In this document: one piece after another, positions 3,016 through 26,211 of the stretch
Layout of the letters: each line of letters begins with the position of its first letter
How positions within the stretch are numbered: the first letter of the stretch is position 1
Source: a virus
Virus record (IMG/VR): IMGVR_UViG_3300010160_000164
Location: 1-30,347 of that record
Direction: 5' to 3' (one strand)
DNA: 30,347 nucleotides
Program-made: the position numbers and the translations under genes
The notes under the pieces: model-generated
What the model was told of the DNA's origin: nothing
The model's database searches: none
The model's input: the letters and a program-made list of their open reading frames with translations, nothing else

Positions 3016-4493
3016 GTATTAAAGATTTTACAGCAGCTATTCAAAGCGCTGCTTATAGAACATGGTTATCTAAACTAAAAGATAATATTCTTATTCAAAG
3101 CAGTAAAGAGTTGCGTAAAAAAGAACAAACTGCAGGAAAAACTAGTTTTTATGTTACGCAAACACAGATTAGACAAATCTATGAACGAATAACTGGTAAA
3201 GAAATAGATGTTGGTACATTAGGTGAAATTTTTAATGCCTTGCAAGAAGAAAATGAAAAAATAACTAATCCAGTAAAACGTAGAGAATCTGCTGGACAAG
3301 TTATTAATATTGGAACTGGTGAACAAGCAATATTTTTTGAATCTATTGGTTTCGATACTATTAGTACTAAATTCCAAGAAGTATTCGAAGATGATAATGT
3401 TAAAGCCGCATATGCAAATGCTACATTGCGAGAGTATGAAGCACGTTTAGCAGAATTAGAGTCGCAATATGGTAAAGGCAAAGTACCTCAGTCTCAATTA
3501 GATGATATTAAAAAAGAAGCTGATAGACATGGTACTTTTGGTTACTACGTTAATAAAGGTCATGTGATTAGTGTAGCAACTAACCTGTTGAAAAAAACCA
3601 GAGAAGATATTGACAAAGTTGAAGGCTTATCAACCAATCAAAAAGAAGCTTTAAAGGCAGCTTTAAAAGCATATATTGCTAAACTCGAAGCAGATGATAT
3701 TCTTACTAGTAACTTAAAACAAATTGATCAAACTATCTATGCTAATTATGTCAAAGACAGTTATGGTAAATATTTAGTAGAATTTCAATTTGGTGTAGAA
3801 AATCAGCTTTCTGGATCAGTAAGTGCTAATATACTTGAAGAAATTAAAGATCTGTTTACACTAAAAACAGAAGATGCAGAAGCAGTTATAAAAAACTCAC
3901 CTACACTAGGACAAGCATTATTACAAACAGAAGGGTCGCCTAGTTTTATTCAAATGCTTGCTGATAATTTAACTGATATTATTCAAACTGGTAAAAGTAA
4001 GAAAAAAACTTATACTGGTCAAACTGCTGAAGTAGCTAGAAAATCTACTAAAGTACTTAAAAGTAATAATAAAGCTAAAATTTCAAAACTTAAAAAAGTA
4101 CTTAGTGACATAGATCAAGCATCTAATAAGCCCACAGTTATTCAAGCTGCGCCTATGCAAGCAGCTACAGATTTAACTTCATTGCTTGCACTATTCAATG
4201 GTAAATTACGAGAAGCTATTGTTAAAAATATGGGCACAGGCTCAAGTACCAGTGTATTAAATTACAGAACCGGTAGATTTGCAGACAGTGCAAAAATTCA
4301 ACGATTAACTGAAAGCAAGCAAGGTATGATTACTGCTTTTTATAGCTATATGCGTAATCCCTACGGAACTTTTAGTACTGGTGGTGCTCAGGAAAATCCT
4401 AGGAGCAGAGACCCTAAACTGTTGATAGCTAAATCAATCAGGGATATTGCAGCAGAAAACATAAAGAATAGGTTAAGGGCGGTGAATGTATGA
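3012..4493 (+). CDS. Putative neck protein with gp10-like C-terminal region
   Basis: This 493-residue protein is not confidently recognised. It sits between the head adaptor and the tail terminator, where neck and head-closure proteins are encoded. Most of it (residues about 1-385) is Lys/Glu-rich, mainly helical, with a Lys/Thr-rich linker around residues 325-375. The last ~105 residues (LLALFNGKLREAIVKNMG, then LNYRTGRFADS and a short terminal helix) resemble the 'RTGRF..S' core seen in HK97 gp10-type neck or tail-completion proteins, which are normally only about 140 residues. It could thus be a gp10-like domain with a large N-terminal extension. It overlaps both neighbours by four bases. 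Structural role is inferred from position; the N-terminal function is unknown. Confidence 0.55.
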   Translation: MSIKDFTAAIQSAAYRTWLSKLKDNILIQSSKELRKKEQTAGKTSFYVTQTQIRQIYERITGKEIDVGTLGEIFNALQEENEKITNPVKRRESAGQVINIGTGEQAIFFESIGFDTISTKFQEVFEDDNVKAAYANATLREYEARLAELESQYGKGKVPQSQLDDIKKEADRHGTFGYYVNKGHVISVATNLLKKTREDIDKVEGLSTNQKEALKAALKAYIAKLEADDILTSNLKQIDQTIYANYVKDSYGKYLVEFQFGVENQLSGSVSANILEEIKDLFTLKTEDAEAVIKNSPTLGQALLQTEGSPSFIQMLADNLTDIIQTGKSKKKTYTGQTAEVARKSTKVLKSNNKAKISKLKKVLSDIDQASNKPTVIQAAPMQAATDLTSLLALFNGKLREAIVKNMGTGSSTSVLNYRTGRFADSAKIQRLTESKQGMITAFYSYMRNPYGTFSTGGAQENPRSRDPKLLIAKSIRDIAAENIKNRLRAVNV

Positions 4494-5004: not shown

Positions 5005-6936
5005 ATGTCATTTAATTTAATTCGTAATAGTCGGATGTTCTTCACGACTAATGTGGATGCATCGAGCGGGGTGGTAGCCTCCAGCGGATTCACATCAAGC
5101 AATACATATGAAATCCAAGTTCTAGATGGCTTCAGCTTTAGTCAAAATACAACGGCTGATGTGGTTACTCTAAATGAAGCTGGTGCAACACCTGTTCGCG
5201 GTCAACGTAGTTTTAACACGGCACTTGATCCAGTAGATTTTACATTTAGTACTTATATTCGTCCTGCTGACTCTAGCACTACTACCGCCGGTGGTTTTAA
5301 CGCTGGGGTTCTTACAGTTCCAACACCCACAAGTATGTCGGCAAACGTTGCAAACGTTACACTTGCATTTAGTGTAAAAGATAGTGCAGCTAATGTTAGC
5401 ACACCTGCAACAAAAGTACTTAACTATACACTAAGCCGCGGCGCTACTGCAAATGCTAATGTTATTACAAGCGGGGCATCTAATGTTGCTAGTTATTTTA
5501 CAATTACAAACGCACCTACAGTAGTTACTAAAGCAGCTACAACTGGTGCACTTCCAGGAACATTTCCAACACTTACTACTAATGTAAATAATATTATTAC
5601 TCCTACTTATCAGTGGGCTATTCAAGCTGGTAGTACAGGTAGTTTTACAAATATTACTGGTGCTAACACCAGTAGTTATGTAATCAATAGTGGTGGTGTA
5701 GAATATACAGCTGGTCTTGCTACTGGTGCTGCAACAAATACTTATCGTTGTACTGTAACTGGTACAGTTAATGGTGTAGCAGCAAGTACACTTGTTGACG
5801 AAATTACAGTTCCTGTTGTACAAACTGTTGCTACTGGTGCTGGTGCGATTGTTGTTGCTACAAGTAGTCTAAATAAAATCGTACCATCTGCAGGCGGTTC
5901 AGCATTTACAGACATTGATTTTACTAATGCTAGCGCAGGTATTAGCATTTATGAAGGTGCTACGCGACTAACTTTTGATGGTGTTGGTAGTCTTGCTCAA
6001 ACTGCTAGTACGTTTAAGGTAACTTATACGGCTGGTACAGGTGTTGTAATTAATACTGGTGTTAATCTTGTTACTGCTGAAGAAGCCGTACTGTGGAATG
6101 CCCTAATGAGCACAACTAGTATTGGTGGTGCAACAGCAGGTTGGACTGATGGTTATCAGTATTCTAAACTAGTAGCTGACTACTCACAGGCTCACCAACT
6201 ACAAAAGTTTGGTGTAATTATTGTACTAGACTCTAGCAGCTTTATTATCGATAATTGTGCGCTAGACAGTGCTACAATTGACTTTGGTCTTGATGCAATT
6301 GCTACAATTGCTTGGGCAGGAAAAGGTACTAAACTACGTCAACTGCCTGGTTTAACAGCTAGTGCTGGTACAACAGTTAATTTTGGTAGCGGTTTGACCG
6401 GTACAGCCAAAGGCAAAAACTACTTAGCACCTTATATTGCTAATAAATTAAGCACTATGAGCGTTAAGGGTGGTATCAATGGTACTGGTACAGTTTATTC
6501 AGTAGCCCTAACCGGCGGTCAGATGGTTATTAGTAATAATATCACCTACTTGACGCCAGCTAACTTGGGTATTGTTAACCAACCTATTACGTACTTTACT
6601 GGTACACGTAGTATTACTGGTACACTAAATGCCTACTTGCGTACTGGTACAGTTGCAGTTCCTAATAGTACAGCAACATTGCTAAGCGATATGTTAACAC
6701 AAAGCTTGACTGATGTTAACCCTGCTTATGAAATGATTGTTGCAATTGGCGGTTCTTCAAACCCAATTCGTGTTGAACTAGATGTTAGCGCCGCAGTGCT
6801 AACCATTCCTAGTATTGCTACGGAACAGGTTATTAGTACAAGCATTAACTTTACTGGCCAAGGCTATACCACAGGCAATGCCTTTGATATTGCTCAGAGT
6901 AACGAAGTCGAAATTCGTTACTACACAGTACTTTAA
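5005..6936 (+). CDS. Major tail tube protein with inserted Ig-like domain
   Basis: The 643-residue protein begins MSFNLIRNSRMFFTTNV and continues with YEIQVLDGFSFSQ, TLNEAGATPVRGQRSFN and VDFTFSTYIRP, a pattern of tail tube proteins in long-tailed phages. The tube fold seems to resume at about residue 356 with VTAEEAVLWNALM and runs to the end (VEIRYYTVL). Between them (about residues 88-355) lies a Thr/Ala/Val-rich insertion. It contains an Ig-like domain at about 170-270: TYQWAIQAG, then FTNITGANTSSYVI, and NTYRCTVTG with Cys249 in the usual 'YxC' strand. Such Ig-like additions decorate the outside of tails and are thought to bind surface glycans weakly. A ribosome site AAGGA lies 10 bases before the ATG. 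The normal length without the insertion would be near 375 residues. Confidence 0.85.
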   Translation: MSFNLIRNSRMFFTTNVDASSGVVASSGFTSSNTYEIQVLDGFSFSQNTTADVVTLNEAGATPVRGQRSFNTALDPVDFTFSTYIRPADSSTTTAGGFNAGVLTVPTPTSMSANVANVTLAFSVKDSAANVSTPATKVLNYTLSRGATANANVITSGASNVASYFTITNAPTVVTKAATTGALPGTFPTLTTNVNNIITPTYQWAIQAGSTGSFTNITGANTSSYVINSGGVEYTAGLATGAATNTYRCTVTGTVNGVAASTLVDEITVPVVQTVATGAGAIVVATSSLNKIVPSAGGSAFTDIDFTNASAGISIYEGATRLTFDGVGSLAQTASTFKVTYTAGTGVVINTGVNLVTAEEAVLWNALMSTTSIGGATAGWTDGYQYSKLVADYSQAHQLQKFGVIIVLDSSSFIIDNCALDSATIDFGLDAIATIAWAGKGTKLRQLPGLTASAGTTVNFGSGLTGTAKGKNYLAPYIANKLSTMSVKGGINGTGTVYSVALTGGQMVISNNITYLTPANLGIVNQPITYFTGTRSITGTLNAYLRTGTVAVPNSTATLLSDMLTQSLTDVNPAYEMIVAIGGSSNPIRVELDVSAAVLTIPSIATEQVISTSINFTGQGYTTGNAFDIAQSNEVEIRYYTVL

Positions 6937-6996: not shown

Positions 6997-7416
6997 ATGT
7001 CTACACTTTCTCTTAAAAATCTACTAGTACCCTCAAAGTCAGTAGAAACCGAATATCCCGGCATGCCTGGATTTGTGCTACAGCTGAGTTTTTTATCTCG
7101 TGAGTTGTTGCTTAATATTCGTAAAAAGTCTACTAAAACCACATTTAAAAATCGTCAACCACAAGAAGATTTTAATGAAGACTTATTTTTGCAGCTATAC
7201 TGCGAACAAGCAATTAAAGGTTGGAAAGGCCTTAAGTTAAGTTATTTAGAGCAATTGGCTCCAGTTGATTTAACAGGTCAAGATCCAGACGATTTCCTAG
7301 AGTTCACTGCAGAAAATGCACTGTACTTAATGAAAAATTCCAGTAACTTTGACGCATTTATTAGCGAACAGGTAAGCGATCTGGGAAACTTTTCTACCAG
7401 CAGCTCCACGAAGTAA
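6997..7416 (+). CDS. Tail assembly chaperone, short form (gpG-like)
   Basis: This 139-residue product lies between the tail tube and tape measure genes and carries a programmed -1 frameshift signal near its 3' end, the hallmark of lambda-type G/GT chaperones. It is acidic and helical in the second half (FLQLYCEQAIKGWKGL, DFLEFTAENALYLM). The N-terminus (STLSLKNLLVPSKSVETEYPG) resembles regulatory N-termini of other phage chaperones, which often begin with 'pv..v.vP.kg..vev'. In known systems many copies coat the tape measure, are not kept in the virion, and the ratio of G to GT is critical. An AAAGG ribosome site precedes the ATG. No sequence family is otherwise recognised. Confidence 0.75.
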   Translation: MSTLSLKNLLVPSKSVETEYPGMPGFVLQLSFLSRELLLNIRKKSTKTTFKNRQPQEDFNEDLFLQLYCEQAIKGWKGLKLSYLEQLAPVDLTGQDPDDFLEFTAENALYLMKNSSNFDAFISEQVSDLGNFSTSSSTK

Positions 7417-7769
7417 GCGAGTTGCTGACTAACTATATACAAAATAGTTCATTGGCTATGACTAAGGCAGCATATTTTGAAATGTGCGAACAGTTAGGCA
7501 GTGAACCAGTAGAATCTGAAATACCCGTAGAATTTGATGATTTTCCACTAGATGTACAGCAAGCACTCAATGTCTATAAATTTATGCGAGACGATTGGGA
7601 CGGCATGAATGGTGTATATTTAGGAAAATCCCTAGTAGGTATCTCCGAAATTTTTCAATTTTGTGATATAGATCCTAGCGATAGAAATATTGTATTTCAG
7701 TTAATTAAAATAATTGATAATATACGACAAGAAGATATAAACAGCAAAAAGAAAAGCTCGTCTAGTTAA
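6997..7769 (+). CDS. Tail assembly chaperone, frameshifted long form (gpGT-like)
   Basis: Ribosomes that slip at 7383-7389 join residues 1-131 of the short chaperone to 126 residues of the -1 frame (starting LFYQQLHEVSELLTNYIQ), giving about 257 residues. The T part is helical and charged (MTKAAYFEMCEQLG, DVQQALNVYKFMRDDWDGM), ending in a Lys/Ser-rich tail. The T frame has no ribosome site of its own; a TTG at 7422 is the only early start-like codon. In the lambda system the T domain binds tail tube subunits and the G domain binds the tape measure, bringing them together for tail assembly. The stop codon (7767-7769) lies in the loop of the terminator that follows. Confidence 0.85.
7383..7427 (+). 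promoter_or_regulatory. Programmed -1 ribosomal frameshift signal (G GGA AAC + stem-loop)
   Basis: The heptamer GGGAAAC at 7383-7389 is read in the zero frame as (G) GGA AAC and fits the X XXY YYZ rule; lambda uses the near-identical GGGAAAG. Eight bases downstream, CAGCAGCTC (7398-7406) pairs with GAGTTGCTG (7419-7427) in a 9-bp stem with one G-U pair and a 12-base loop that contains the zero-frame stop (7414-7416). Slipping back by one puts ribosomes into the open frame that ends at 7769. The spacing and stem match established stimulatory elements. Confidence 0.9.
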
Positions 7770-13469: not shown

Positions 13470-13841
13470 ATGGCTGTTATTAGTTGGCCTACTACAAACG
13501 GTTTTCCACAAGTACCACAAAAAGGTTTTCAGGAAACTGTGCAAGTAGGCGTTATTAGAAGCCCAATGGAAATGGGGCCTGCCAAAGTACGCAGACGTAA
13601 TGCTAGAACTAGCACTATGAATCTTAGTTTTATCCTAACCACTGCACAAACTCAGACTTTGGAAACTTTTATAAAAAACGATATTCGTGGTGTGGCAAGG
13701 TTTAACTTTCCACATCCACGATTGCTGGGCACTACGGTAGAAGCAAGAATTATACCACAAGGCGAAGGCGAATTCTATACATTAACATATCTAGCACCAG
13801 GTTTTTGGAGCGCTAGTTTAACATTTGAAATACTGCCATGA
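13470..13841 (+). CDS. Minor tail protein, probable gpM-like distal tail protein
   Basis: The 123-residue protein follows the tape measure with a perfect AGGAGG ribosome site (13459-13464) embedded in the end of that gene. It carries WPTTNGFPQVPQKGF at the N-terminus, then MEMGPAKVRRRNARTSTM, and ends FWSASLTFEILP. This pattern is common among small beta-rich tail proteins found between tape measure and NlpC/P60 genes. By position it corresponds to lambda gpM, at the junction of tape measure, tube and tip. The precise role is inferred. It overlaps the next gene by four bases (ATGA). Confidence 0.68.
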   Translation: MAVISWPTTNGFPQVPQKGFQETVQVGVIRSPMEMGPAKVRRRNARTSTMNLSFILTTAQTQTLETFIKNDIRGVARFNFPHPRLLGTTVEARIIPQGEGEFYTLTYLAPGFWSASLTFEILP

Positions 13842-14851
13842 GAGGATTAAGTGAAGCGGCCGTAAGAGCCATGTATTCTTCAGAAACTAAACAAGCAGTA
13901 ATACTGTTATTGACAATATACGATCCTGAAGATAATGAAACAGAAGTTTTACACTTAGCAGATAATTTTACTCAAAGGCTAGACCAATATACTACGGATA
14001 CAGATGTAGTATATGGCGTTAGTATGGTTGGTGGAGTAAATAGTTTAGGTACTGTAAGTGTTCAAAGCAGCGATTTTGATGGCGGCGTACAGAACCCACT
14101 TAGCAGCTATTTTAAAATTAATGGTACAACAGTTAATTATCAGTTTACACGTGGCCATACCGTTATGGTATTAAATCCAAATACTTTTGCTGTTGAAACT
14201 ATAAATACTTATGATACTTATTTAGCAAATAATTCTCAACAACTTAAAACTGCACTTCAAGCTATACCAACCGGAAAGTTGGTATGTATTGGCAGTTGGG
14301 ACGCCACATCGCTGGATCAATCAACCAGAGACTATATTAATCAACAGTTTAAAACTACAAGAACTAATACATGGGCTCAAACCAGAATTACACATACTGT
14401 AATTGGTGTAAAAGGTAATATTTACGTTAAACCTGTAGAAGTAATAACTAACGGTAGTACTGGATTTCTTTCTGAATTTACACTAAGTAGCAGCTATCAA
14501 ACTAGTGGTAGTAATATTACTAATAGTACTTTTATTTATTTTCCAATGGAAATTACCTTACCATCAGAAACTGATGACGGCAGTTCTAATTGTACTATTG
14601 CAATTAATTTTGCTAGCAAAGAATTAATTGAGTTTATTAGAGTTAATTTAACTTCACCTGCTAAAATACTACTACAACTTGTGCTATCAGACAATCCCAG
14701 TTATGTAGAAGCGTCTTTTTCAAATTTCTACATAACTGGTGTAAGTTATAGTGCTCAGGGTGTTAATCTTGACCTTAGCATGATTAATTATAGCACAGAA
14801 CCTTTTCCTGCCTATAATTTTTCTCCAAAATACTTTCCAGGACTGTTCTAA
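13838..14851 (+). CDS. DUF1833-type minor tail protein with inserted ILEI/FAM3-like domain
   Basis: The 337-residue protein is in the lambda gpL position. Its ends match the DUF1833 family: RGLSEAAVRAMYSSETKQAV and LLLTIYDPED at the N-terminus; FPMEITLPSETDDGSSN, a helix with ELIEFIRV, LVLSDNPSYVEASF and FPAYNFSPKYFPGLF at the C-terminus. Residues about 75-205 are an insertion that looks like the ILEI/PANDER (FAM3) fold: FTRGHTVMVLNP, VETINTYDTY, LKTALQAIPTGKLVCIGSWD, then ITHTVIGVKG. This order (RGhnV-vv-d, fDTy, L...ip-G.iV...D, .GvKG) is the signature of that family, known in vertebrate cytokine-like proteins and carbohydrate-related enzymes, and reported in some phage tail proteins. A ligand-binding role at the tail tip is an inference. 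It shares TAATG with the next gene. Confidence 0.78.
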   Translation: MRGLSEAAVRAMYSSETKQAVILLLTIYDPEDNETEVLHLADNFTQRLDQYTTDTDVVYGVSMVGGVNSLGTVSVQSSDFDGGVQNPLSSYFKINGTTVNYQFTRGHTVMVLNPNTFAVETINTYDTYLANNSQQLKTALQAIPTGKLVCIGSWDATSLDQSTRDYINQQFKTTRTNTWAQTRITHTVIGVKGNIYVKPVEVITNGSTGFLSEFTLSSSYQTSGSNITNSTFIYFPMEITLPSETDDGSSNCTIAINFASKELIEFIRVNLTSPAKILLQLVLSDNPSYVEASFSNFYITGVSYSAQGVNLDLSMINYSTEPFPAYNFSPKYFPGLF

Positions 14852-17800
14852 TGTGGCATAATAAATACATAGGATTACCATACAAGCACAATGGCAGAGA
14901 GCACTCAGGTACTGACTGTTGGGGATTAGCACGTCTAGTATATCAAGAGCAGTTTAATATTGATTTGCCAAGTTTGGTAGAAGATTATGATGGTAGTACT
15001 GGTAAAAATATTCGTGAACTAGTCAACATTCAATTTGGTATGAATTTACCAAGTTTGCTAGAAGACTGTGTTGGTGATAAAAATATTCGTGAACTGGTAA
15101 GTATTCAAAAAGAATCGTGGCAGTTGGTTACTGTGCCAGAAGTTCCGGATCTATGTGTATTCAAAATTTTTGGGCAACCAACTCATATTGGTATTTATAT
15201 TGGTAATAATAACTTTTTACATATAAATGAGGGCCAAACTAGTATAGTTGAGTCACTAAATAATCTTAATTGGGCTAAACGATTAGAGGGTATATATAGA
15301 TATTGCCCTAAAAAAGTTCAGTTAACCGGAGCACCACACCCATTACAAACTCAAAATATAGTTACAGATTGGGTAGCAGCTGGAAAAAATCTAGAAGAGT
15401 TATCTGTTTACATTAAGCAAAAGTATCAAATTAGTGATGCACTATTTGAAAGAGTTATTATACTTGTTGATGGTATGCCTGTAGATAAAACACACTGGCA
15501 TACAAGAACTTTATTGCCCGGCGAGACTATTGCATATAGAGTACTACCTGGTTTAAGGGCACTAAGAACTTTAGCAACAATTGCTTTAGTTATTGCTATA
15601 GCAACATATGCTCCACAGTTTGCTGCTTATGTAACAGGGGCTACAGAGGGGCTTGCGTATAATGCTGTATATATAGGTACAGCAGCTGCAATGTCGTATG
15701 TTGGCAGCAAATTAATTGATGCAATTGCACCAGTTAGAATGCCTAACGGCCCAAATAATCCCGGCACACCAGGAACCTTAAATTTATTCAACGGTACAAC
15801 TAACCAGATGAATAGATTTGGGGCCATTCCTGTAGTATTAGGCAAAGTTCGTATGACTGGAGTATTAGGTGCCCAACCTTATATTCATAGTTTAGAAAAC
15901 AGTAACAATATTACTACACTATTGATCTGGGGATTCGGACCACTAGCAATTGAAGATTTACAAATTGGTACCATACCACTTACAAGTTTTTATAATGACT
16001 TAACTACTGGTACACTAAGTCAATTAGCTCCTGCACATTTATATGGTTACTCAACAGAAGATCAAGATGCTTTTAATAGCATTTATGGTCAAGAAATTCA
16101 ACAAGTATATGCTAGTGCTGGAGGACCTGTAGAATTAGTAAATAACGCTACTTTGGGTAATCCTTGGACTGAAATTAGTTTAACTGACAAAGTTACCAGC
16201 ATGGCCCTAAGCTTTACCTTTCCACAAGGTTGTAGAGCAATTAATGTAAAAAACGGCGATATTAGTACTGCACAAACTGATATAGAAATTCAGTATAGAC
16301 CTGCATATGATGCAGACGGCAATAGAAATACTAGTAATGCTACTTGGGTATCACAAGGCGGGTATGCTACAGCGGTTAATACAAATTTACTAAATCCACA
16401 AGTTAAAACTTGGGTTGTAGGCATTCCTGCACCAATAGATTTTCCTGAAACCACAAATAATCCTGACTACAGCATCCTATATCAGTGGCATACTATTAGT
16501 ATTGGACAAGGAGGTAGGCTTACACTATCATCAGGCACTCCTACTCCTAATGCTACTGATACTAGTATTCCAAATGATATAAAAAGTTACTATTATCGGA
16601 AAAATTTTGCTAGTTTATCGCTGGTAGCTCAACCTTGGTCAAGTACTGGTATATATAAACTTAATGATTTAGTTAAATATAATGGAGGAGTATACGCTAG
16701 TTTACAAAATCAAAATACTAATCATGAGCCTAATGGTACGGCTGGTGATATGTACTGGTCATATCCAGAACCCTCTAGTATCTATCTATATGTAGTTAAG
16801 CCACAAATACCACAAGGCGATATAAAGCTATATGATTTTTGTTTAAAAACTGGTGTTGGACTTTTTGGTTCAGTAGTTGATAATCGCGGTACAGTAGATG
16901 TTAACTATACAGGCTTAAGTCTTAATATTGTTAGTAATAGTACTAATGTAGTAGACTGGGCTCAAACAACACCTACTTCTGTAGCTGTAACTATTAATGG
17001 TGGAAAACTATTAGGTACAAGCTATCAAACTGGTACAGAAAATTTAATATTTAATGGTACTAGTTTTAGCAATGTTACTGCTTTTACTAGTAGTAATAAT
17101 ACTCTTTCTACTTGGTCACCTTTGTTAATTAATAATGGAATTTGGGCAACAAGTGGACAAAACGTTGTAGATTTAGATGCAACAGTATCATTTCCTGTTG
17201 ATGGATATTATACAGTTGAAATGGCTGTAGTAGGTTCTGCAAATTTATATATTGCCGCAACGGATTATAATAGTACTGGTAATACTGGAGGTCTTGCAGG
17301 GGCTTGGTTAAATGCAATTAGATCAAACCCAACCTCAAAATTAGATATAGAAGATTTAACACCTGTACTTAGTATTGAAAATAATTTTTTTGGAACTAGG
17401 TTTACAACTTCAGTAAATGTTACAAAAGGTATTAGAAAAGTAAGACTAATTGGTAGAGGGGATGCTAGTTTTAGTACTGGCGGGGTTTCCTATGCCGGAC
17501 GTGTTGCACTAAGAGTTACTTATATAGCTGGAGGCGATTTAAATCCTAATCCACAAACTACTAATACAATTTCAATTGGTATTGCTGGTACTTATGAAAA
17601 ACGAAAAGATCCATTTAACTATATCTATCGGTTTTATAATCTTCCACAAGCACAGTACGATGTTAGAGTACGCAGAGCAAATTCTGATAAAGATGAAGAG
17701 GGTGATCTTAGATTTTTCTATAATGTACAAGTTAATTCTTTAACGGGATTTAGCAATAATGGTCCTACCACTAATCCACCAGGATGTTACCTAGCAAAAA

Positions 17801-19761
17801 GTGCAATTAGACTTGAAAGTACCGGTAAAGTTAATGGTACTGTAGATGGAATTAATGCATTAGTCACTACTAAAACTTATGATTGGAATGGTACTGGTTG
17901 GAATAATAATGATCCTAATACGCCCATTAATACCCTATCAAATGGCACTAATTGGATACCAGATAGGCCAACTAATAATCCTGCTAGTTTATTTATTTAT
18001 GTTCTTACTCATTGTGCTAATGCCTATGCAATACCTATAGCAAAAGTAAGTGCACAATTTGATTTATTAAAATTACAAGAGTGGCATACATTTTGTTTTG
18101 TTAAAAAATTAGCATTTAATAGTGTGATTACAAATACTCAAAGTGTTATGGATACACTCAGAGATATTTGTGCTGCCGGTCTTGCTAGTCCAGCAATAAT
18201 AAATGGTAAATGGACAGTTATTATTGATAGACCGCGACAATATGTAACCCAATATTTTACTCCGCATAATAGCTGGGGATTTGAATCATCAAAAACATTA
18301 CCAAGGCTACCAGACGCATTAAGGGTTACTATTCAAGATGAATCTAAAGCGTATCAACAAGATGAGTTTTTTGTGTACAGAGAAGGATTTACAGAGTCAA
18401 CAGCAAAAATTTATGAACAAATAACTTTTCCTGGTGTAACTAATAAAACCCAAGCCATATACTTGGCAAAATTTCATTTAGCACAAGCAAAACTACGTCC
18501 AGAAACTTACAGCATTAATGCAGACTTTGAACATTTAGTGTGTACTAGAGGTGACTTAGTCAGAGTTTCGCATGATATTCCTCAATGGGGTATTGGAACT
18601 GGTAGAATTACAAAAATTGAAAATCCTACTATTAATACTACTAAGCTAACCTTAAGCGAAGACTTTTATATAGAACCAAATAAAATATACATTATTAGAA
18701 TTAGAACTGTAGCGGGTGCAGTTGTAAAAACTTTTAGTACACCAGTAAATATTGGTGCGCCACAGTATACAAACGAAATAACTATTAATCAACAATTACT
18801 GTTACTATCTACTCCTCCGGAAGTAGATAATTTGTATATGTTAGGAATTACTACTACATTAACACCTACTAGTTATACTGATTCTCAAGAATTAGTTGTA
18901 CTAAGTGTTGAAACTCAGTCTAATAATACTGCAAGACTTACACTTACAGACTATTCACCTACACTGTACGACGATAATTTTACTAATGATGTATTTTTAC
19001 CAAATATTACTGGTGGAAATACTGATGTATTAATACAACGTATTACACAAGTACCTATTATTGTTAATACAAGTAGTGATCCGCTGTATGCAATACAAAT
19101 ATCTCCAGGTGTATATCAAAATACATTAATTGTAGCTATTGGACACCCTACAGGACTTCCTGCGCTTGCAACTAAGATTCAATTAGCTATTGTTGAAGGT
19201 GATGCTCAATTTAATGACGATACATTAGCTGGGGTTATGACAGTTGATAAATCTCAAAGTGCTTTTTCAATACCTGGATTAATTTCTAATAGTGGATATA
19301 AAATTAAAGTCAGGTATTCTAATGCAACTGGTAGTATAGTAGGACCGTGGTCATATCCACCAACTACAGTTTCTATTACTGGAAAAAGTGGACTAAGTTA
19401 TATGGAGCCTCCACCAATAGATGTTTTATTAGATGATCACTATATATACATTACTCCACAAAACTTTGATTTATTAAGTAACAGTGATTTTAAAGCCTAT
19501 GAATATAGAGTATACAGAAATCCAGGTAGTGGTGATTTTTGGGAATTAGGCTCTGGTTTAATAGATATAAAATCAGTTCAAAGTCGTGGTCCCGGTAGAA
19601 TTAATATTATCGATTACGATTTAGGTACGGGTATAAATCCTACACCTAGGCTTAGTTTTACAGGCGTTCAATACAGAATTGCTTGCAGAACTGTAGATAC
19701 AAACAACAACTATAGTATTACTAGTTCTCTAGGAGTAGTAATTGTGACTCACATAAAGTAA
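14851..19761 (+). CDS. Tail tip fusion: NlpC/P60 peptidase (K) + I-like + host-specificity J-like protein
   Basis: The 1636-residue protein joins three lambda-type functions that are usually separate. Residues 1-150 are an NlpC/P60 peptidase: Cys23 in GTDCWGL, His112 in PTHIGIYIG, His124 in FLHINEG; it likely trims peptidoglycan at entry. Residues about 160-235 resemble gpI, and about 236-295 contain two hydrophobic helices with YVGSKLIDAIAP. From about 300 the J-like central tail-tip protein follows (FGAIPVVLGKVRMTG, YIYRFYNLPQAQYDVRVRRAN, LRDICAAGLASPAIINGKW). Extra parts are a CBM5/12-like patch (594-637: W596, Y602, VKYNGGVYAS, W636), a beta-rich lectin-like insertion (about 690-895) and an FN3-like domain near 1425-1510. 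A 26-residue duplication lies in the peptidase. The protein forms the tip hub and probably contacts the host receptor. Confidence 0.87.
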   Translation: MWHNKYIGLPYKHNGREHSGTDCWGLARLVYQEQFNIDLPSLVEDYDGSTGKNIRELVNIQFGMNLPSLLEDCVGDKNIRELVSIQKESWQLVTVPEVPDLCVFKIFGQPTHIGIYIGNNNFLHINEGQTSIVESLNNLNWAKRLEGIYRYCPKKVQLTGAPHPLQTQNIVTDWVAAGKNLEELSVYIKQKYQISDALFERVIILVDGMPVDKTHWHTRTLLPGETIAYRVLPGLRALRTLATIALVIAIATYAPQFAAYVTGATEGLAYNAVYIGTAAAMSYVGSKLIDAIAPVRMPNGPNNPGTPGTLNLFNGTTNQMNRFGAIPVVLGKVRMTGVLGAQPYIHSLENSNNITTLLIWGFGPLAIEDLQIGTIPLTSFYNDLTTGTLSQLAPAHLYGYSTEDQDAFNSIYGQEIQQVYASAGGPVELVNNATLGNPWTEISLTDKVTSMALSFTFPQGCRAINVKNGDISTAQTDIEIQYRPAYDADGNRNTSNATWVSQGGYATAVNTNLLNPQVKTWVVGIPAPIDFPETTNNPDYSILYQWHTISIGQGGRLTLSSGTPTPNATDTSIPNDIKSYYYRKNFASLSLVAQPWSSTGIYKLNDLVKYNGGVYASLQNQNTNHEPNGTAGDMYWSYPEPSSIYLYVVKPQIPQGDIKLYDFCLKTGVGLFGSVVDNRGTVDVNYTGLSLNIVSNSTNVVDWAQTTPTSVAVTINGGKLLGTSYQTGTENLIFNGTSFSNVTAFTSSNNTLSTWSPLLINNGIWATSGQNVVDLDATVSFPVDGYYTVEMAVVGSANLYIAATDYNSTGNTGGLAGAWLNAIRSNPTSKLDIEDLTPVLSIENNFFGTRFTTSVNVTKGIRKVRLIGRGDASFSTGGVSYAGRVALRVTYIAGGDLNPNPQTTNTISIGIAGTYEKRKDPFNYIYRFYNLPQAQYDVRVRRANSDKDEEGDLRFFYNVQVNSLTGFSNNGPTTNPPGCYLAKSAIRLESTGKVNGTVDGINALVTTKTYDWNGTGWNNNDPNTPINTLSNGTNWIPDRPTNNPASLFIYVLTHCANAYAIPIAKVSAQFDLLKLQEWHTFCFVKKLAFNSVITNTQSVMDTLRDICAAGLASPAIINGKWTVIIDRPRQYVTQYFTPHNSWGFESSKTLPRLPDALRVTIQDESKAYQQDEFFVYREGFTESTAKIYEQITFPGVTNKTQAIYLAKFHLAQAKLRPETYSINADFEHLVCTRGDLVRVSHDIPQWGIGTGRITKIENPTINTTKLTLSEDFYIEPNKIYIIRIRTVAGAVVKTFSTPVNIGAPQYTNEITINQQLLLLSTPPEVDNLYMLGITTTLTPTSYTDSQELVVLSVETQSNNTARLTLTDYSPTLYDDNFTNDVFLPNITGGNTDVLIQRITQVPIIVNTSSDPLYAIQISPGVYQNTLIVAIGHPTGLPALATKIQLAIVEGDAQFNDDTLAGVMTVDKSQSAFSIPGLISNSGYKIKVRYSNATGSIVGPWSYPPTTVSITGKSGLSYMEPPPIDVLLDDHYIYITPQNFDLLSNSDFKAYEYRVYRNPGSGDFWELGSGLIDIKSVQSRGPGRINIIDYDLGTGINPTPRLSFTGVQYRIACRTVDTNNNYSITSSLGVVIVTHIK
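14953..15108 (+). repeat. Tandem duplication inside the NlpC/P60 domain
   Basis: Two adjacent units, 14953-15033 (81 bases) and 15034-15108 (75 bases), encode near-copies: FNIDLPSLVEDYDG...KNIRELVNIQ and FGMNLPSLLEDCVG...KNIRELVSIQ. The stretch AAAAATATTCGTGAACT is identical in both. It sits between the catalytic Cys23 and His112, in the loop after the first helix, so the active site can stay intact. Confidence 0.9.
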
Positions 19762-19770
19762 GGGATTATT

Positions 19771-22700
19771 ATGGCAGTAAGAGCATACTTAAATCCTGGA
19801 ATTAAGTCGTTAAACTTAAGTATAAGTTCACCTACAGATGTATATACTGGTAGGTTTAGAAATGATTTAACAACGGTTAAAGTTTGGTGCTATTTAACCT
19901 CTGGAGCGGACTTAACCACACAAAGCCCTCCCACAGGTAATTTAGTGTACGACGGACTAAGCCTACAAGTTCATATACCTAACTTAATACCCAATAGTAG
20001 ATACTATGTTAAGTACGCATTGGTATCTAATATTGACGGCAGCCCCCTAGGTTATACAGTTTCCGGCGAACTAAGTTCATTTGTGTATGAAAATCCCACA
20101 GATGGCGAATACTTATTAGCAGGCGATGGTGACGGCGGATTTCAAAACGTTATATTAGACACTGGTTTAACGCTTGATAATAATACACTAAAAACCACAG
20201 GGCTTGCAAAAACTACAGAAAGCTTTGTGGTTATGGGCGGCAGTGGTAATTTAACTAATGAGCGTGTACTAACACAAGGTGCAGGCATTATTATTGAAGA
20301 TCGCGGCCCTAATAATGCAGTTGTTATTAGTATCGGGGGTGTAGGTGCCCTAACTAGTGTAGGTATTGGTACTCCTGAAAATTTCTTTTTAAAGGTATCA
20401 AATAACCCGCTTACGGCTGATGGAAATCTTGGTTTAAGTTATTCTGAAGGCAATGCTTTGCCGGTCACCTCAGGAGGTACAGGCAGAGCTAATCTTGGTA
20501 GTGGATTGCTAAAAGGCAATACTACTGGTGCAATTATCACCGGTGTAGCAGGCGTAGATTACATTGGTCCTACTACCGGCGCGGACTTATTAATGGGCAA
20601 CGGCAGCGGTGGCGTAAGAAATGTTAGTATTGGCGACAATATTATTTTTGCTAATAATACAATTAGCGCTGATTTTAGTGCTGCTACAGCTACCCTATTA
20701 ACTGGTGTAGGTAATACATATCCTATTATAAGTAGCGGAGGCACTGCTCCTAATATTAGTCTTGACATTGTGCCTGTTAGGTTAGGTGGTACGGGTGCAA
20801 GTGCTGCGGGCAACGCGCGCAGAAATATTTTGCCGCTTGCAAATAATGTGGCTTTTAAAAAATATGTGTTAACTTTAGACGCTACTGGAGTTGATTCTAA
20901 TTGGGAAGCTACTCAAGTTCCTGCAAATGTAGTTAGTAAAGTTAATGCAACTGGCCCGCTTGAAGTAACTATCTACAAACCAGAAGGAACCCCGGGACTA
21001 TATGGTGCCGAACATGCTAATATTGCATTAACAGGTATTGTTAACATAGCAAATGGTGGCACTGGTGCTAATACTGCAGCAAATGCTAGAATTAATTTAC
21101 TACCAAATTACATTACTAAAGGTACAAAATTTTTACGAGTTAATGCTGGCGAAACAGATGTTGACTGGGTAGATGTGCCTATGCCTAATTTAATAGGCGG
21201 CTATGTTACTGGTACTGGTAATTTAGGCAGAGCAAATGCTGAAGTTACTGGAATTGCATCACCACCAAATGTTTTAAGTTTAAGAAGTAACTACAATAAC
21301 AATAACTATCCAACTGCTTTTGGTAATTTACTTACCCTAGGCGGCGAAGGTGACGGACAATTATATGTTGGTTGGCCTAATACAGGTGGTACTAATGGTA
21401 ACGCTACGGTAAGTGCAGATAGTTATATACGTAGTCGCAGAGACGTAAGTAATAGTTGGAGTCCTTGGGCCAGAATTATTACTAGTGTTAACTATAATAG
21501 TGGCGACTTTTTTGCAAATGTTGCTATTACTGGCAGCTATACAGACCTGTTAGGTAAACCAGCATTAAAAAATGTGGCTATTACTGGCAGCTATGCAGAT
21601 TTAATTGATAAACCAACAATATTTAGCGGCAATTATGCAGATTTAACTAACAAACCAGTACTTACTACATCACTTGCTAATTTAACAGATGTTAATACTA
21701 CTGGCGTAAGTGCTGGACAAACTTTACTTTATAACGCTAGTACTCAAACTTGGAAATCTGGTACTCTTAGTATAGGTTATTCAGAAAGTGCTAATACTGC
21801 TAATACTGCTCTTAAAGCAAACTTTGCAGAAACCGCTAATAGTGTGGCACTAGTAGTACCTATTAATAAAGGTGGTACAGGTAGTGATAATAGGCAAGGG
21901 GCAATTAATGCGCTAGCAGGAAATGCATCTATAGGTAGATTTCTGCGTGGAGACGGTAGTAATGTGACCATGTCTAATATTGCTGCTAGTGATTTAGCTG
22001 GACTTACTATTGCTGCTAATATTACTGGCAGTGCGGGCAGTACAACATTTGCAACTTCAGCAGGTACTATTAGTGGTAATGGAATAATTTCAATTGCTAA
22101 TGGTGGTACAGGAAAAAATAATAGACAAGACGCAATTAATGAATTAACTAATAATGCAAATACCGCCGGAAAATTTTTACGAATAAATGCTCAAAACAAT
22201 GCTGTAATGGATTTTATTACAGCCCAAGACCTTGCCGGACTTACTATTAGTGGAAACGTTAGTGGTAGTGCTGGTACTATAACTACTACTTTAGGGATTG
22301 GTTTAGGCGGTACAGGACAACAAACTAGACAAAATGCTATTAATTTTTTAGCTTCTAATAATGCTTCAAATGTACGTGCCGGACTATATGGTGATTCTAG
22401 ATTTTTTAAATCTGACGGCACCAATATGGTTATGTCTAATATTGCTATTGCAGATGTGCCTACACTAAATCAAGACACTACAGGTAATGCCGGTGGTTTA
22501 GTAAGTACGTATATAGTGCCTGCTAGACAAGGTGGCACTGGTCAAGGTGGTGCAAGTGCCTATGTAATTGGTGATATATTATACGCAAGCAGCAATATTG
22601 CCCTAAGTAAATTAGCTGCTGTAACTGCAGGTAACGTATTAATATCGGCAGGAGCTAATACGGCTCCGGCATACGGTAAAGTAAACTTACAGACTATGAC

Positions 22701-23544
22701 TACTGGAACACTTCCGGCAGGTCAAGGCGGTACAGGAAACGGTAATACTCCAACAGGTACGGGCAACGTAGTTTTACAAACCAGTCCTGCATTAATTACG
22801 CCTAATATTGGAACACCTAGTTTTGGTGTATTAACAAATTGCACAGGATTACCGTTAGGAGGTACTGGTGTTACTGGTATATTAAACGTAGCTAATGGTG
22901 GTACTGGTAGATCATCTCTTGGTGCTTCGTTATTAAAAGGTAATACATCTGGTGCAATTATTTCAGCTACTGCTGGAACTGATTATGCTTCTCCAACTAG
23001 CGGTAGTGGCCTTCTTGCTGGTAATGGTGCTGGTGGGTTTACCAGCGTTACACTTAGTGGTCCACTAAGTTATACTGGCGGAGTACTGAGTTCTACCGCA
23101 TTAGATAATAGCCTTTCATATACTTGGACAGCCTTACAAACTTTTAATAAATCGCTATTTGTTTCTCCAACAGAAGTAATTGTTATTAACGGAACTTCAC
23201 CAAGTGGAACAGTAGTATTAGACGCCGCTACTTCTCCTATACTGTATACAACTGCAAATCCAACAGCAAACTGGACCCTAAACATAACAAGTGTGGGAAC
23301 CTTGCTAAATGTAAATAATAGATCCCTAACTATTATTCACATAGTAACTAACGGAACTCCTGCTTATTATCAAAGCGCACTACAAATTGATGGTGTATCG
23401 CAAGCGGCAAGTGCTGTAAAATGGTTAGGAGGTCTTGCACCTACTAGCGGCGGTGCAAGTAGCATAGATATTTATTCACTAACAATACTTAAAAATAACT
23501 CAGGAGTTTATACTACTGTAGCTAGTGTAGCGAGGTATGCATAA
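19771..23544 (+). CDS. Tail fibre protein with GGTG repeats and pyocin-knob-like domain
   Basis: The 1257-residue protein begins with an FN3-like region (residues about 1-110) that may dock on the J protein. The shaft holds ten 'GGTG' motifs, for instance IANGGTGANTAANARINLLP, typical of phage side or central fibres and likely marking trimeric beta-structure units. In the middle (about residues 472-573) GNLLTLGGEGDGQLYVGW, YIRSRRD and SWSPWARIIT resemble the pyocin-knob / fibre-knob domain. Next come short repeats of the type ITGSYTDLLGKP. The C-terminal ~130 residues (SLTIIHIVTNG, LQIDGVSQAAS, VKWLGG, IDIYSLTILK) match a C-terminal beta domain shared by many fibre proteins of aquatic phages. 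It likely binds the cell surface. An AAGGGA site precedes the ATG; the stop overlaps the next start (TAATG). Confidence 0.87.
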   Translation: MAVRAYLNPGIKSLNLSISSPTDVYTGRFRNDLTTVKVWCYLTSGADLTTQSPPTGNLVYDGLSLQVHIPNLIPNSRYYVKYALVSNIDGSPLGYTVSGELSSFVYENPTDGEYLLAGDGDGGFQNVILDTGLTLDNNTLKTTGLAKTTESFVVMGGSGNLTNERVLTQGAGIIIEDRGPNNAVVISIGGVGALTSVGIGTPENFFLKVSNNPLTADGNLGLSYSEGNALPVTSGGTGRANLGSGLLKGNTTGAIITGVAGVDYIGPTTGADLLMGNGSGGVRNVSIGDNIIFANNTISADFSAATATLLTGVGNTYPIISSGGTAPNISLDIVPVRLGGTGASAAGNARRNILPLANNVAFKKYVLTLDATGVDSNWEATQVPANVVSKVNATGPLEVTIYKPEGTPGLYGAEHANIALTGIVNIANGGTGANTAANARINLLPNYITKGTKFLRVNAGETDVDWVDVPMPNLIGGYVTGTGNLGRANAEVTGIASPPNVLSLRSNYNNNNYPTAFGNLLTLGGEGDGQLYVGWPNTGGTNGNATVSADSYIRSRRDVSNSWSPWARIITSVNYNSGDFFANVAITGSYTDLLGKPALKNVAITGSYADLIDKPTIFSGNYADLTNKPVLTTSLANLTDVNTTGVSAGQTLLYNASTQTWKSGTLSIGYSESANTANTALKANFAETANSVALVVPINKGGTGSDNRQGAINALAGNASIGRFLRGDGSNVTMSNIAASDLAGLTIAANITGSAGSTTFATSAGTISGNGIISIANGGTGKNNRQDAINELTNNANTAGKFLRINAQNNAVMDFITAQDLAGLTISGNVSGSAGTITTTLGIGLGGTGQQTRQNAINFLASNNASNVRAGLYGDSRFFKSDGTNMVMSNIAIADVPTLNQDTTGNAGGLVSTYIVPARQGGTGQGGASAYVIGDILYASSNIALSKLAAVTAGNVLISAGANTAPAYGKVNLQTMTTGTLPAGQGGTGNGNTPTGTGNVVLQTSPALITPNIGTPSFGVLTNCTGLPLGGTGVTGILNVANGGTGRSSLGASLLKGNTSGAIISATAGTDYASPTSGSGLLAGNGAGGFTSVTLSGPLSYTGGVLSSTALDNSLSYTWTALQTFNKSLFVSPTEVIVINGTSPSGTVVLDAATSPILYTTANPTANWTLNITSVGTLLNVNNRSLTIIHIVTNGTPAYYQSALQIDGVSQAASAVKWLGGLAPTSGGASSIDIYSLTILKNNSGVYTTVASVARYA
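20473..23055 (+). repeat. Repeated GGTG fibre modules
   Basis: Ten degenerate modules with GGTG lie between these points. The first (20473 on) and last (22897 on) share an extended pattern: LLKGNTTGAI / LLKGNTSGAI, then AGVDYIGPT / AGTDYASPT and MGNGSGG / AGNGAGG. Three middle modules share 'GGTG..xRQ.AIN.L..N'. This shows shaft growth by internal duplication. Confidence 0.8.
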
Positions 23545-25100
23545 TGCCAATGATTGCAACTACGGCAAAAATGAGCATTCGTGGATTTGGTGGTTTAAGT
23601 TATCAATTTACTGGTAATCCGGGCATTAATAGTGCCTGGCTTGCCAGGATTGGTACTTTTGGTACTGCTGTTACTAATAAAAACGTTGCCAGCAGAATAG
23701 CTGTACATGCCGCAACTGGTGATTTTTACGTAGGTGGTCAAGAAAACGTAGGTACTAGCGGTATCTTTGGATTCGCTATGACCAAATTTAGTAGCACTGG
23801 TAGTATTGCATGGCAAAAAATAGTGGGGGCGTTTAACACAGAAGCACACGTACTAGATTGTTGCGTCGATAGTGTTGGCAATGTATACTGGATTGGCACA
23901 GCTCAATTTACTAGCGGCCAACCTGCTGGTTATACTACTAATTCAAGCAGAGATGCCTACTTTGGAAAATTTAACAGTGATGGTACTACAGGATTTATAA
24001 AGCGAATAAATATTACTTATAGTACTCAAAGCTATACTGACAGTGGTGAAGCTATAGCATACTCTGCTAGTGACGATAGTATTGTAATTGCAGGCAGAAC
24101 ACCAAGAATGGCAAGTGCTACAAGTGTGGTTACTGATGCTTGTTTTGTAGCTAAATTTACTACTAGCGGTACTCAAACATGGCGATATACCTACTATAAC
24201 ACTGTTACTCAAAATCAATTTTATGCAAAAGGAGTTAGTGTTGATAGTAGCGGCAATATTTATCTAACAGTATATGATGTTACGACTAGTTCAGGAATTA
24301 CCTTTCTTGGATTAAATAGTACTGGCGGTATTAGATTTGGTAATAAAGTACGTATGTCTGGCTCAACAGCTATTGTAGGATATAGAACTACTATAGTTAA
24401 TGGTAATATAGCTATGGCTATACAGGGAAATCCTCCAGCACCTACTACAACTACAAATTTAGCCATAGTTACTCTATATAACTCAACTGGAGGTATAGTT
24501 TGGCAAAAAGTAGTAGATACTACTAGAAACACTAGTATAGCTCCTGCAAATTTTAATACCTCAACAGCACTATCCAGTTATGTTAATTTACAGGGCCTTA
24601 CTAGTGATAGTAGTGGTAATGTTTATCTTGCAGTTCCAGGTCGTTCAGGTACAACAGCAGACTGTATACTACTATATAAATTTGCAGCCGCTGATGGCAG
24701 TGTACTATGGATTCGTGCTATTTATATTAATAGTGGTGCTGCAGCAACTGTACCTACCGGACTACAATGTTTAGGAGATTTCTTATATCTTATAGGTACT
24801 ACAGATCAGGAGACTACAACTCAGGTTACTACTTATGGAAATTACATATTTGCTAAATTGCCTATTGATGGTACAGCAATATCTGGTACCGGATATACGG
24901 TAAGCACCGGCATTAGTTATATAAATCAAGATGTAGGTACGTTTCACGCAACACTAACTCCTTCAAACCTAGTTAATGATACTGGATTAAGTATTTCTAA
25001 TAGTGTTGCTACAACAGCCTATGACGGTGTAGCAGATGTGTCCTTAACAGTAAATAATAATACTATGCTGGTAGAAAGCAAAACAATCAGTATTGCCTAA
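23544..25100 (+). CDS. Predicted seven-bladed beta-propeller tail/fibre-associated protein
   Basis: The 518-residue protein starts inside the stop codon of the fibre gene. It contains seven units of one pattern, a hydrophobic strand, 'G(N/D).Y..(G/V)' and 'aw.k': TGDFYVGGQ, VGNVYWIGT, DDSIVIAGR, SGNIYLTVY, NGNIAMAIQ, SGNVYLAVP and GDFLYLIGT, each usually followed by 'F.s.G...W.k'. This is the layout of SBBP/YncE-type beta-propellers and predicts seven blades over residues about 45-460. The last ~50 residues (FHATLTPSNLVNDTG, AYDGVADVSLTV) are a separate beta domain. Translational coupling to the fibre suggests it sits at the fibre tip or acts as an adaptor. It could bind a glycan or be a decoration protein. 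No enzyme motif was seen. Confidence 0.72.
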   Translation: MPMIATTAKMSIRGFGGLSYQFTGNPGINSAWLARIGTFGTAVTNKNVASRIAVHAATGDFYVGGQENVGTSGIFGFAMTKFSSTGSIAWQKIVGAFNTEAHVLDCCVDSVGNVYWIGTAQFTSGQPAGYTTNSSRDAYFGKFNSDGTTGFIKRINITYSTQSYTDSGEAIAYSASDDSIVIAGRTPRMASATSVVTDACFVAKFTTSGTQTWRYTYYNTVTQNQFYAKGVSVDSSGNIYLTVYDVTTSSGITFLGLNSTGGIRFGNKVRMSGSTAIVGYRTTIVNGNIAMAIQGNPPAPTTTTNLAIVTLYNSTGGIVWQKVVDTTRNTSIAPANFNTSTALSSYVNLQGLTSDSSGNVYLAVPGRSGTTADCILLYKFAAADGSVLWIRAIYINSGAAATVPTGLQCLGDFLYLIGTTDQETTTQVTTYGNYIFAKLPIDGTAISGTGYTVSTGISYINQDVGTFHATLTPSNLVNDTGLSISNSVATTAYDGVADVSLTVNNNTMLVESKTISIA

Positions 25101-25104
25101 ACGT

Positions 25105-25142
25105 AAAAATACCCGCCCACAAACAGGGGTGGGTATTTTTTT
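25105..25142 (+). terminator. Strong intrinsic terminator after the beta-propeller gene
   Basis: AAAAATACCC (25105-25114) pairs perfectly with GGGTATTTTT (25131-25140), and the stem extends inward through a G-T pair and three C-G pairs. It ends in seven T's (25136-25142). It lies four bases after the stop codon and abuts the next promoter. Confidence 0.93.
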
Positions 25143-25145
25143 ATA

Positions 25146-25174
25146 TTGACACTTTAAACCCACCGTGTTATAAT
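25146..25174 (+). promoter_or_regulatory. Perfect-consensus sigma-70 promoter for the distal structural genes
   Basis: TTGACA (25146-25151), a 17-base spacer and TATAAT (25169-25174), with TG at 25166-25167 as extended -10. The -10 lies in the imperfect palindrome GTTATAATATAAC (25167-25179), which might be bound by a regulator. The leader to the ATG at 25236 is about 55 bases; CTGT/ACAG (25212-25223) forms a small stem beside the CAGGAG ribosome site. Confidence 0.92.
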
Positions 25175-25235
25175 ATAACAAAATTACTATGTTATCATAA
25201 TTTTTTGGTGTCTGTAACTACAGGAGTTTTTATCA

Positions 25236-25598
25236 ATGAATCCAGAAGAAAGTTACTCATTACTACAGGTTATAGGTGTTGGTTTTGCCAGTTTATTAAC
25301 TATTAGTTTTCTATTACAAAAATTCTTGACTGGATTTAAAACAGATAAAACAGAAAATTCTATACTTAATATGATGCACCAAGAACTGGAACGTATGAGT
25401 GATCAAAATACAAAATTAAGTACAGAATTAGGTAAACTGCAAGAAGAAGTAATTGAGTTAAATCAACAAATTAGAAATTTAACTACAGAAAATCAACGTT
25501 TGCATCAAGAAATTGCTGCACTTACTCTTGAAATTGGTAAGTTAAAAGACCTCTCCATTATTAAGCATAAGGAAACAACATGGCACGATCAAGATTAA
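25236..25598 (+). CDS. Membrane-anchored coiled-coil protein (possible spanin-like or structural accessory)
   Basis: The 120-residue protein has one hydrophobic segment at about residues 10-29 (LLQVIGVGFASLLTISFLLQ), a short Lys-rich linker (KFLTGFKTDKTEN), then a long coiled coil (about 42-107, including KLSTELGKLQEEVIELNQQI). There is no Cys and no signal peptidase site. A single N-terminal membrane anchor plus a coiled coil matches the topology of inner-membrane spanins (Rz), but also many small phage membrane proteins of unknown role. No o-spanin or endolysin is next to it, so lysis function is only a possibility. It is the first gene after the second promoter, with CAGGAG nine bases before the ATG, and overlaps the next gene by 19 bases. 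Confidence 0.7.
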   Translation: MNPEESYSLLQVIGVGFASLLTISFLLQKFLTGFKTDKTENSILNMMHQELERMSDQNTKLSTELGKLQEEVIELNQQIRNLTTENQRLHQEIAALTLEIGKLKDLSIIKHKETTWHDQD

Positions 25599-26200: not shown

Positions 26201-26211
26201 AGGGATTTAAT

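Follow-up and report, generated by a model that had tools for sequence, protein, structure and literature searches.

An ILEI domain inserted in a predicted hub-domain-I tail-tip protein, a putative glycan-binding module of a phage tail

The tail-tip gene at 13838-14851 raises the question of why a phage tail protein should be split by a stretch that resembles a family of animal secreted proteins, and what such a stretch might do at the end of a tail. The window analysed here is the whole 30,347-nucleotide stretch of IMG/VR virus record IMGVR_UViG_3300010160_000164, a 30-kb record that may itself be a fragment. The initial annotation, made by eye, described the gene product as a DUF1833 tail-tip protein carrying an ILEI/FAM3 domain between its two halves. 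The features concerned are listed below, with P0001 denoting the tail-tip protein.

13838-14851, plus strand: predicted DUF1833/hub-domain-I tail-tip protein with ILEI insertion (P0001), 337 amino acids plus stop
13838-14020, plus strand: N-terminal part of the hub domain, residues 1-61 (alignment with insert-free homologues; fold)
14021-14530, plus strand: inserted module, residues 62-231, between two hub-domain strands (homologue alignment; VIA-align)
14150-14419, plus strand: Pfam ILEI core, residues 105-194 (E 3.5e-11, model positions 1-90 of 90; DNA-level E 1.3e-13)
14150-14152, plus strand: R105, equivalent of POMGnT1 Arg129, a sugar contact (alignment, profile; PMC9802357)
14300-14302, plus strand: D155, equivalent of POMGnT1 Asp179 (alignment, profile; PMC9802357, PMC9437275)
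14384-14386, plus strand: R183, equivalent of POMGnT1 Arg207 (alignment; PMC9802357)
14531-14848, plus strand: C-terminal part of the hub domain, residues 232-337, ending in FPGLF (PHROG 396, E 1.9e-15; DUF1833 positions 50-149)
13470-13841, plus strand: small tail protein in the gpM position, 123 amino acids (PHROG 384)
14851-19761, plus strand: fused NlpC/P60 (K-like), tail I and central-fibre J-like protein, 1636 amino acids (Pfam, PHROG)

Analysis of the central region recovered the motifs picked out by eye, with RGHTVMVLNP starting at R105, YDTY at residue 125, LKTALQAIPTGKLVCIGSWD ending at D155 and VIGVKG starting at residue 188. A search against the Pfam ILEI family (PF15711) matched residues 105-194 over the complete model, scoring 43.9 bits where the cut-off is 27 (E 3.5e-11), and four P0001 homologues likewise exceeded that cut-off. 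The match was also found at the nucleotide level (14150-14419, E 1.3e-13); the same kind of search gave matches in none of 14 control genomes. The residues on either side of the Pfam match (about 70-104 and 195-215) are similar to those that flank it in phages of streptococci and lactococci, and the whole insert is therefore regarded as an ILEI domain. Searches of the PDB depended on the query used. The single P0001 sequence found no relevant match and a five-sequence profile found marginal matches only (E 0.41-0.88); a profile built from ten phage ILEI domains retrieved TMEM2, FAM3B, FAM3A, POMGnT1 and FAM3C at E values from 5e-4 to 0.03. The PHROG matches obtained with the domain by itself include the long-tail-fibre proximal connector family, in agreement with the 'GG domain' for which PMC3742443 cites Guo et al. 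(2006).

The predicted structure points in the same direction. P0001 was modelled with AlphaFold2 without templates from 40 sequences (mean pLDDT 69.9, pTM 0.51); a first, poor model built on six sequences had a pLDDT of 43.7. Rows that contained the ILEI domain only were excluded from the full alignment because they misaligned globally. With either model, the first 21 Foldseek ranks were all occupied by POMGnT1, FAM3 and TMEM2 structures. Alignment of the modelled insert (residues 62-224) by VIA-align placed 139 residues on the POMGnT1 stem (5ggf_A) with a Z score of 15.3 and an rmsd of 3.1, followed by FAM3B (Z 14.3), FAM3C (Z 14.0) and TMEM2, also called CEMIP2 (Z 12.1). The insert thus has a POMGnT1-stem/FAM3-type fold in the model. 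Its orientation relative to the ring is uncertain in this medium-confidence monomer model, in which the linker residues 195-208 and 217-228 have pLDDT values below 50. The by-eye assignment to ILEI/FAM3 is upheld by the Pfam profile, the profile search of solved structures and the fold comparison; a lack of any such match had been named as the result that would speak against it, and the match to a FAM3/POMGNT1 stem-type fold proved strong. A chance resemblance or an illusion of the eye is ruled out by the ILEI profile and the fold match.

Comparison with relatives demonstrates that the domain is an insertion. Five close homologues of P0001 (L002-L006) were found in IMG/VR. One of them, L006, is an insert-free protein of 173 amino acids that keeps both flanks and has approximately seven residues at the insertion site, where its sequence runs uninterrupted from VVYGV through TSNSQD to FIFFPM. 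It matches DUF1833 over positions 3-149 of 150 at 25.8 bits, above the cut-off, and P0001 minus its insert aligns with it at 74% in the N-terminal part and 87% in the C-terminal part. As insert-free homologues such as L006 retain both flanks, the insertion is clean. They place the hub parts at residues 1-61 and 232-337, within a few residues of the split first proposed (1-60 and 235-337). The insert itself had been put at about 130 residues and is in fact about 170 (62-231), the fold reaching past the Pfam model on both sides. L002 carries the same ILEI insert as P0001, and L003, L004 and L005 carry at the same site ILEI plus approximately 125 further residues of PA14-like appearance. This extra module follows the ILEI domain; in L003 (1740-2141) it matches PA14 at E 0.0084, below the cut-off, and in L005 (6439-6840) the search gave no match.

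A wider survey of the family was also suggested at the outset. Among 99 aligned DUF1833 proteins, the window's own included, the interval between G60 and F232 (P0001 numbering) comprises 7-12 residues in 94 and 170, 171 or 295 residues in the other five. The 94 insert-free relatives rule out that the region is an ordinary part of DUF1833. These proteins were ordered by their similarity to L006, and IMG/VR contains 565 or more relatives; five in 99 therefore does not give a frequency in the population. In Curvibacter phage P26059A, the nearest isolate, the protein lacks the insert. An assembly chimera is likewise ruled out, since the insert, in one open frame, recurs on four further contigs, each from a separate sample. 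In a tree, the proteins with the insert group together with insert-free L006, a topology that both one gain and a gain plus a loss would fit. Identity is 69-76% in the insert and 82-93% in the hub halves, indicating that the insert diverges faster. No ILEI domain was found elsewhere in 20 records bearing insert-free DUF1833 proteins, a plasmid search gave no match, and bacterial genomes yielded no close relative of the whole of P0001 and a single Gram-positive ILEI domain. Five of the 99 proteins (L032, L033, L034, L035 and L041) carry a different insertion, 94-109 amino acids long, whose place between T26 and R47 (P0001 numbering) is in an earlier loop. The open reading frame of L033 lies at 5992-6753, and the earlier-loop insertion has no significant Pfam family.

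What, then, is the protein that has received the insert? The C-terminal half of P0001 matches DUF1833 over positions 50-149 at 17.8 bits, just below the 21-bit cut-off, and PHROG 396, 'minor tail protein', at E 1.9e-15. When the two halves of the AlphaFold2 model were rejoined and compared by VIA-align, the best matches were a tail protein of Sf11 (Z 12.5) and residues 1-162 of lambda gpL (8iyk_L; Z 11.5), followed by proteins of JBD30 (Z 11.2), RcGTA (11.0), Chi (11.0), R4C (10.2), T5 (pb3 residues 1-168, Z 9.8) and T1 (Z 9.4). These matches to siphophage hub proteins bear out the earlier reading of a tail hub. On its modelled fold, P0001 is a hub-domain-I subunit, the counterpart of the lambda gpL N-terminal domain. 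The gene order, in which the tape measure gene is followed by the gene in the gpM position, P0001 and the fused K/I/J protein, agrees with this identity. The 1636-residue neighbour contains the Pfam domains NLPC_P60, Lambda_tail_I, FNIII-A_GpJ and Phage-tail_3 and matches PHROG 31, central tail fiber J, at E 1.5e-60; in Microcystis phage Mwe-Yong1 the gene at the gpM position carries the annotation 'tail tip protein M'. Lambda gpL has in addition a C-terminal [4Fe-4S] domain with four cysteines. That domain is absent from P0001, because the chain terminates at the hub domain and contains only two cysteines in all (C150 and C252), the former in the insert.

The lambda tail contains three copies of hub domain I, which join a gpJ domain to build the final ring of the tail (PMC10721106). 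The model puts the insert of P0001 between strands 59-63 and 230-234, probably strands three and four of the hub domain. In lambda gpJ, hub domain III takes the place of the loop between beta3 and beta4 in hub domain IV (PMC11101478), and from strand order we infer that the insert loop corresponds to that gpJ loop.

Several other features of the window were recorded. A single 663-residue protein at 349-2340 has prohead protease (Peptidase_S78) and capsid matches; Vibrio phage Ceto and phages of Aeromonas are among its best phage matches by query coverage. Positions 3012-4493 match T5_p143 (tail completion). Judged by these head-gene and T5_p143 matches, a T5-like head is predicted to be combined with a lambda-like tip. 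The major tail protein (5005-6936, 643 amino acids) matches its PHROG over residues 355-619 only, leaving approximately 350 N-terminal residues unexplained. The tail assembly chaperone open reading frames at 6997-7416 and 7365-7769 (PHROG 313 and 3914) share an overlap in the -1 frame; the heptamer GGGAAAC at 7383-7389 (zero frame G GGA AAC) is a classic -1 slippery site like that of lambda G/GT. The J-like protein contains a weak PA14-like stretch (window 16900-17600, E 0.08-0.09), perhaps a related beta-sandwich module. Beyond it, a 518-residue protein at 23544-25100 has a beta-propeller repeat match (SBBP, E 2.9e-6) and is a possible fibre or adhesin, and a 1308-residue open reading frame past the tail genes (26212-30138) has no significant Pfam match and a weak PHROG match (E 0.0044).

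The residues that contact sugar in the animal proteins bear on the function of the insert. Binding of GlcNAc is reported for the POMGnT1 stem, where it involves Arg129, Asp179 and Arg207, and likewise for FAM3C and FAM3A, so that sugar binding is the property these proteins have in common (PMC9802357). R105, D155 and R183 of P0001 align with these three residues, the numbering of the POMGnT1 PDB chain having been derived by a single constant offset (+86) that fits all three. Across ten phage ILEI domains, among them seven with no more than 27-31% identity to the domain of P0001, all three residues are invariant and belong to the 16 invariant columns among 103. The chance that all three named columns would be invariant is approximately 0.003 if columns are taken as independent, which they are not, R105 lying in the conserved RGH motif; the conservation could be structural rather than related to binding. 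T4 gp35 passes the ILEI cut-off (E 1.1e-8) and has alanine at the first sugar-contacting position and a non-acidic residue at the second, so that at least the first two residues are missing. Because the POMGnT1 sugar-contacting residues are kept in P0001, a glycan-binding role predicted from sequence is plausible for the insert. The 'cytokine-like' of the initial annotation survives as a name only: the insert contains a single cysteine, nothing in its context points to signalling, and P0001, a structural gene within a tail operon, lacks the conserved cysteines and secretion signal of FAM3-type proteins.

On balance, we favour with moderate confidence the reading in which a complete ILEI domain of the POMGnT1-stem type took the place of one hairpin loop in hub domain I and serves as a putative glycan-binding adsorption module on the ring. 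The ILEI domains, three per tip, would protrude from the tail-tip ring and would bind a host-surface sugar (capsule, exopolysaccharide or LPS) weakly and reversibly. This contact would raise adsorption ahead of commitment by the central J fibre. What the analysis establishes is which domain the insert is and how it folds, exactly where it sits, that most relatives are without it, and that the three sugar-contacting residues are conserved. We infer the sugar binding, the kind of ligand, the exposure and the copy number of the insert by analogy with carbohydrate-binding Dit insertions and POMGnT1-type sugar binding. Insertions of the former type in lactococcal Dit restored or improved adsorption to exopolysaccharide-coated cells (PMC10688798). 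The insert is not essential to the tip, because it is rare among the surveyed relatives.

The insert might instead be a docking part that binds another phage protein, for instance a collar or side fibre, and not a host sugar; the ILEI domain in the T4 gp35 connector may do the same. That T4 gp35 is a long-tail-fibre connector with a Pfam ILEI domain, that many gp35 hinge connectors are among the BFVD matches and that several large downstream open reading frames (19771-30138) could encode fibres all fit such a role. The sugar-contacting residues tell against it, the first two being missing from T4 gp35 and all three being kept in P0001 and its relatives, and the hub functions without the insert, judging by insert-free L006. 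We consider docking unlikely. The rarity of the insert (five in 99), its faster divergence and the frequency of decoration domains on tail rings would agree with a decoration of the ring that is neutral or only stabilising and lacks a specific ligand. The faster divergence fits selection by changing host surfaces equally well, however, and the invariance of the triad in distant phages and the addition of a PA14-like module at the same site in three relatives tell against such a decoration; we consider this explanation quite improbable.

The position of the insert between what are probably the third and fourth strands also brings to mind hub domain III of lambda gpJ, which grows from a hub domain IV loop and rotates on opening (PMC11101478). 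An insert that senses attachment and helps to open the tube could be imagined from this likeness. We hold it to be very improbable, since hub domains I and IV of T5 are nearly static on opening (PMC10038345) and most relatives inject without the insert. Returning to the glycan-binding module, a broader proposal can be advanced only tentatively, at somewhat less than even confidence: in Gram-negative phages with lambda-like tips, the hub-domain-I loop may serve as a dock at which glycan-binding modules are exchanged, being empty, occupied by ILEI or occupied by ILEI plus a PA14-like module, and the earlier loop may be a second dock for other modules, together making an 'evolved hub' that would parallel evolved Dit.

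Comparison with known systems places these observations in context. One close parallel is CBM_1 of Tal, the tail-tip adhesion protein of Streptococcus phage TP-778L, a POMGnT1-stem-like carbohydrate-binding module in which the first two sugar residues are conserved (PMC9437275). Like the insert, it has an ILEI domain, extensions on both sides and the R/D/R residues (the residue numbers in PMC9437275 are one higher than in the sequence record that we compared). Unlike the insert, to which it is approximately 31% identical, it is part of a string of carbohydrate-binding modules on the long Tal extension of a Gram-positive phage and does not interrupt a loop of hub domain I. The POMGnT1 stem, FAM3 and TMEM2 (CEMIP2) share the fold (Z 15.3 to 12.1), the profile match and the three sugar residues, but are animal secretory-pathway or secreted proteins, whereas P0001, with its one insert cysteine, is predicted to be a virion part. 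T4 gp35, with the 'GG domain' as cited in PMC3742443, belongs to a phage tail too and has a Pfam ILEI domain; it differs in joining fibre halves and in lacking at least the first two sugar residues. The rejoined halves resemble lambda gpL and the RcGTA, Chi, JBD30, T1 and T5 pb3 proteins in fold (Z 11.5 to 9.4) and in position before the K/I/J genes; lambda gpL differs from P0001 in having the iron-sulphur domain and in lacking the ILEI insert.

The evolved Dit of lactococcal and other siphophages offers a further likeness, in that a module of sugar-binding type occurs in a conserved tail-ring protein of some family members only (PMC10688798). In P0001 the ring protein is hub domain I and the module is a different one, while the effect on adsorption is established for Dit. 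The likeness is one of design only, as evolved Dit is defined by a module inside Dit and a separate small protein fills the gpM/Dit position upstream of P0001. ILEI domains in phage tails are already known (PMC6145125, PMC9437275, Guo 2006), and BFVD contains entries named 'Interleukin-like EMT inducer'. In the limited open-access literature searched, we found no report of an ILEI or sugar-binding module inserted in hub domain I/DUF1833. It therefore appears that the ILEI domain at the hub-domain-I site is new, ILEI domains in phage tails and module insertion in Dit being known before.

These results link the uncharacterised family DUF1833 to the siphophage hub domain I. The triad kept in P0001 and partly lost in T4 gp35 may separate binding from structural uses of a fold shared by phages and animals, and the insert is a small protein with which to ask which sugars phage ILEI domains bind. 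They also suggest that the hub ring, usually treated as a pure extension of the tube, can carry adhesion-type modules in the manner of Dit in Gram-positive phages.
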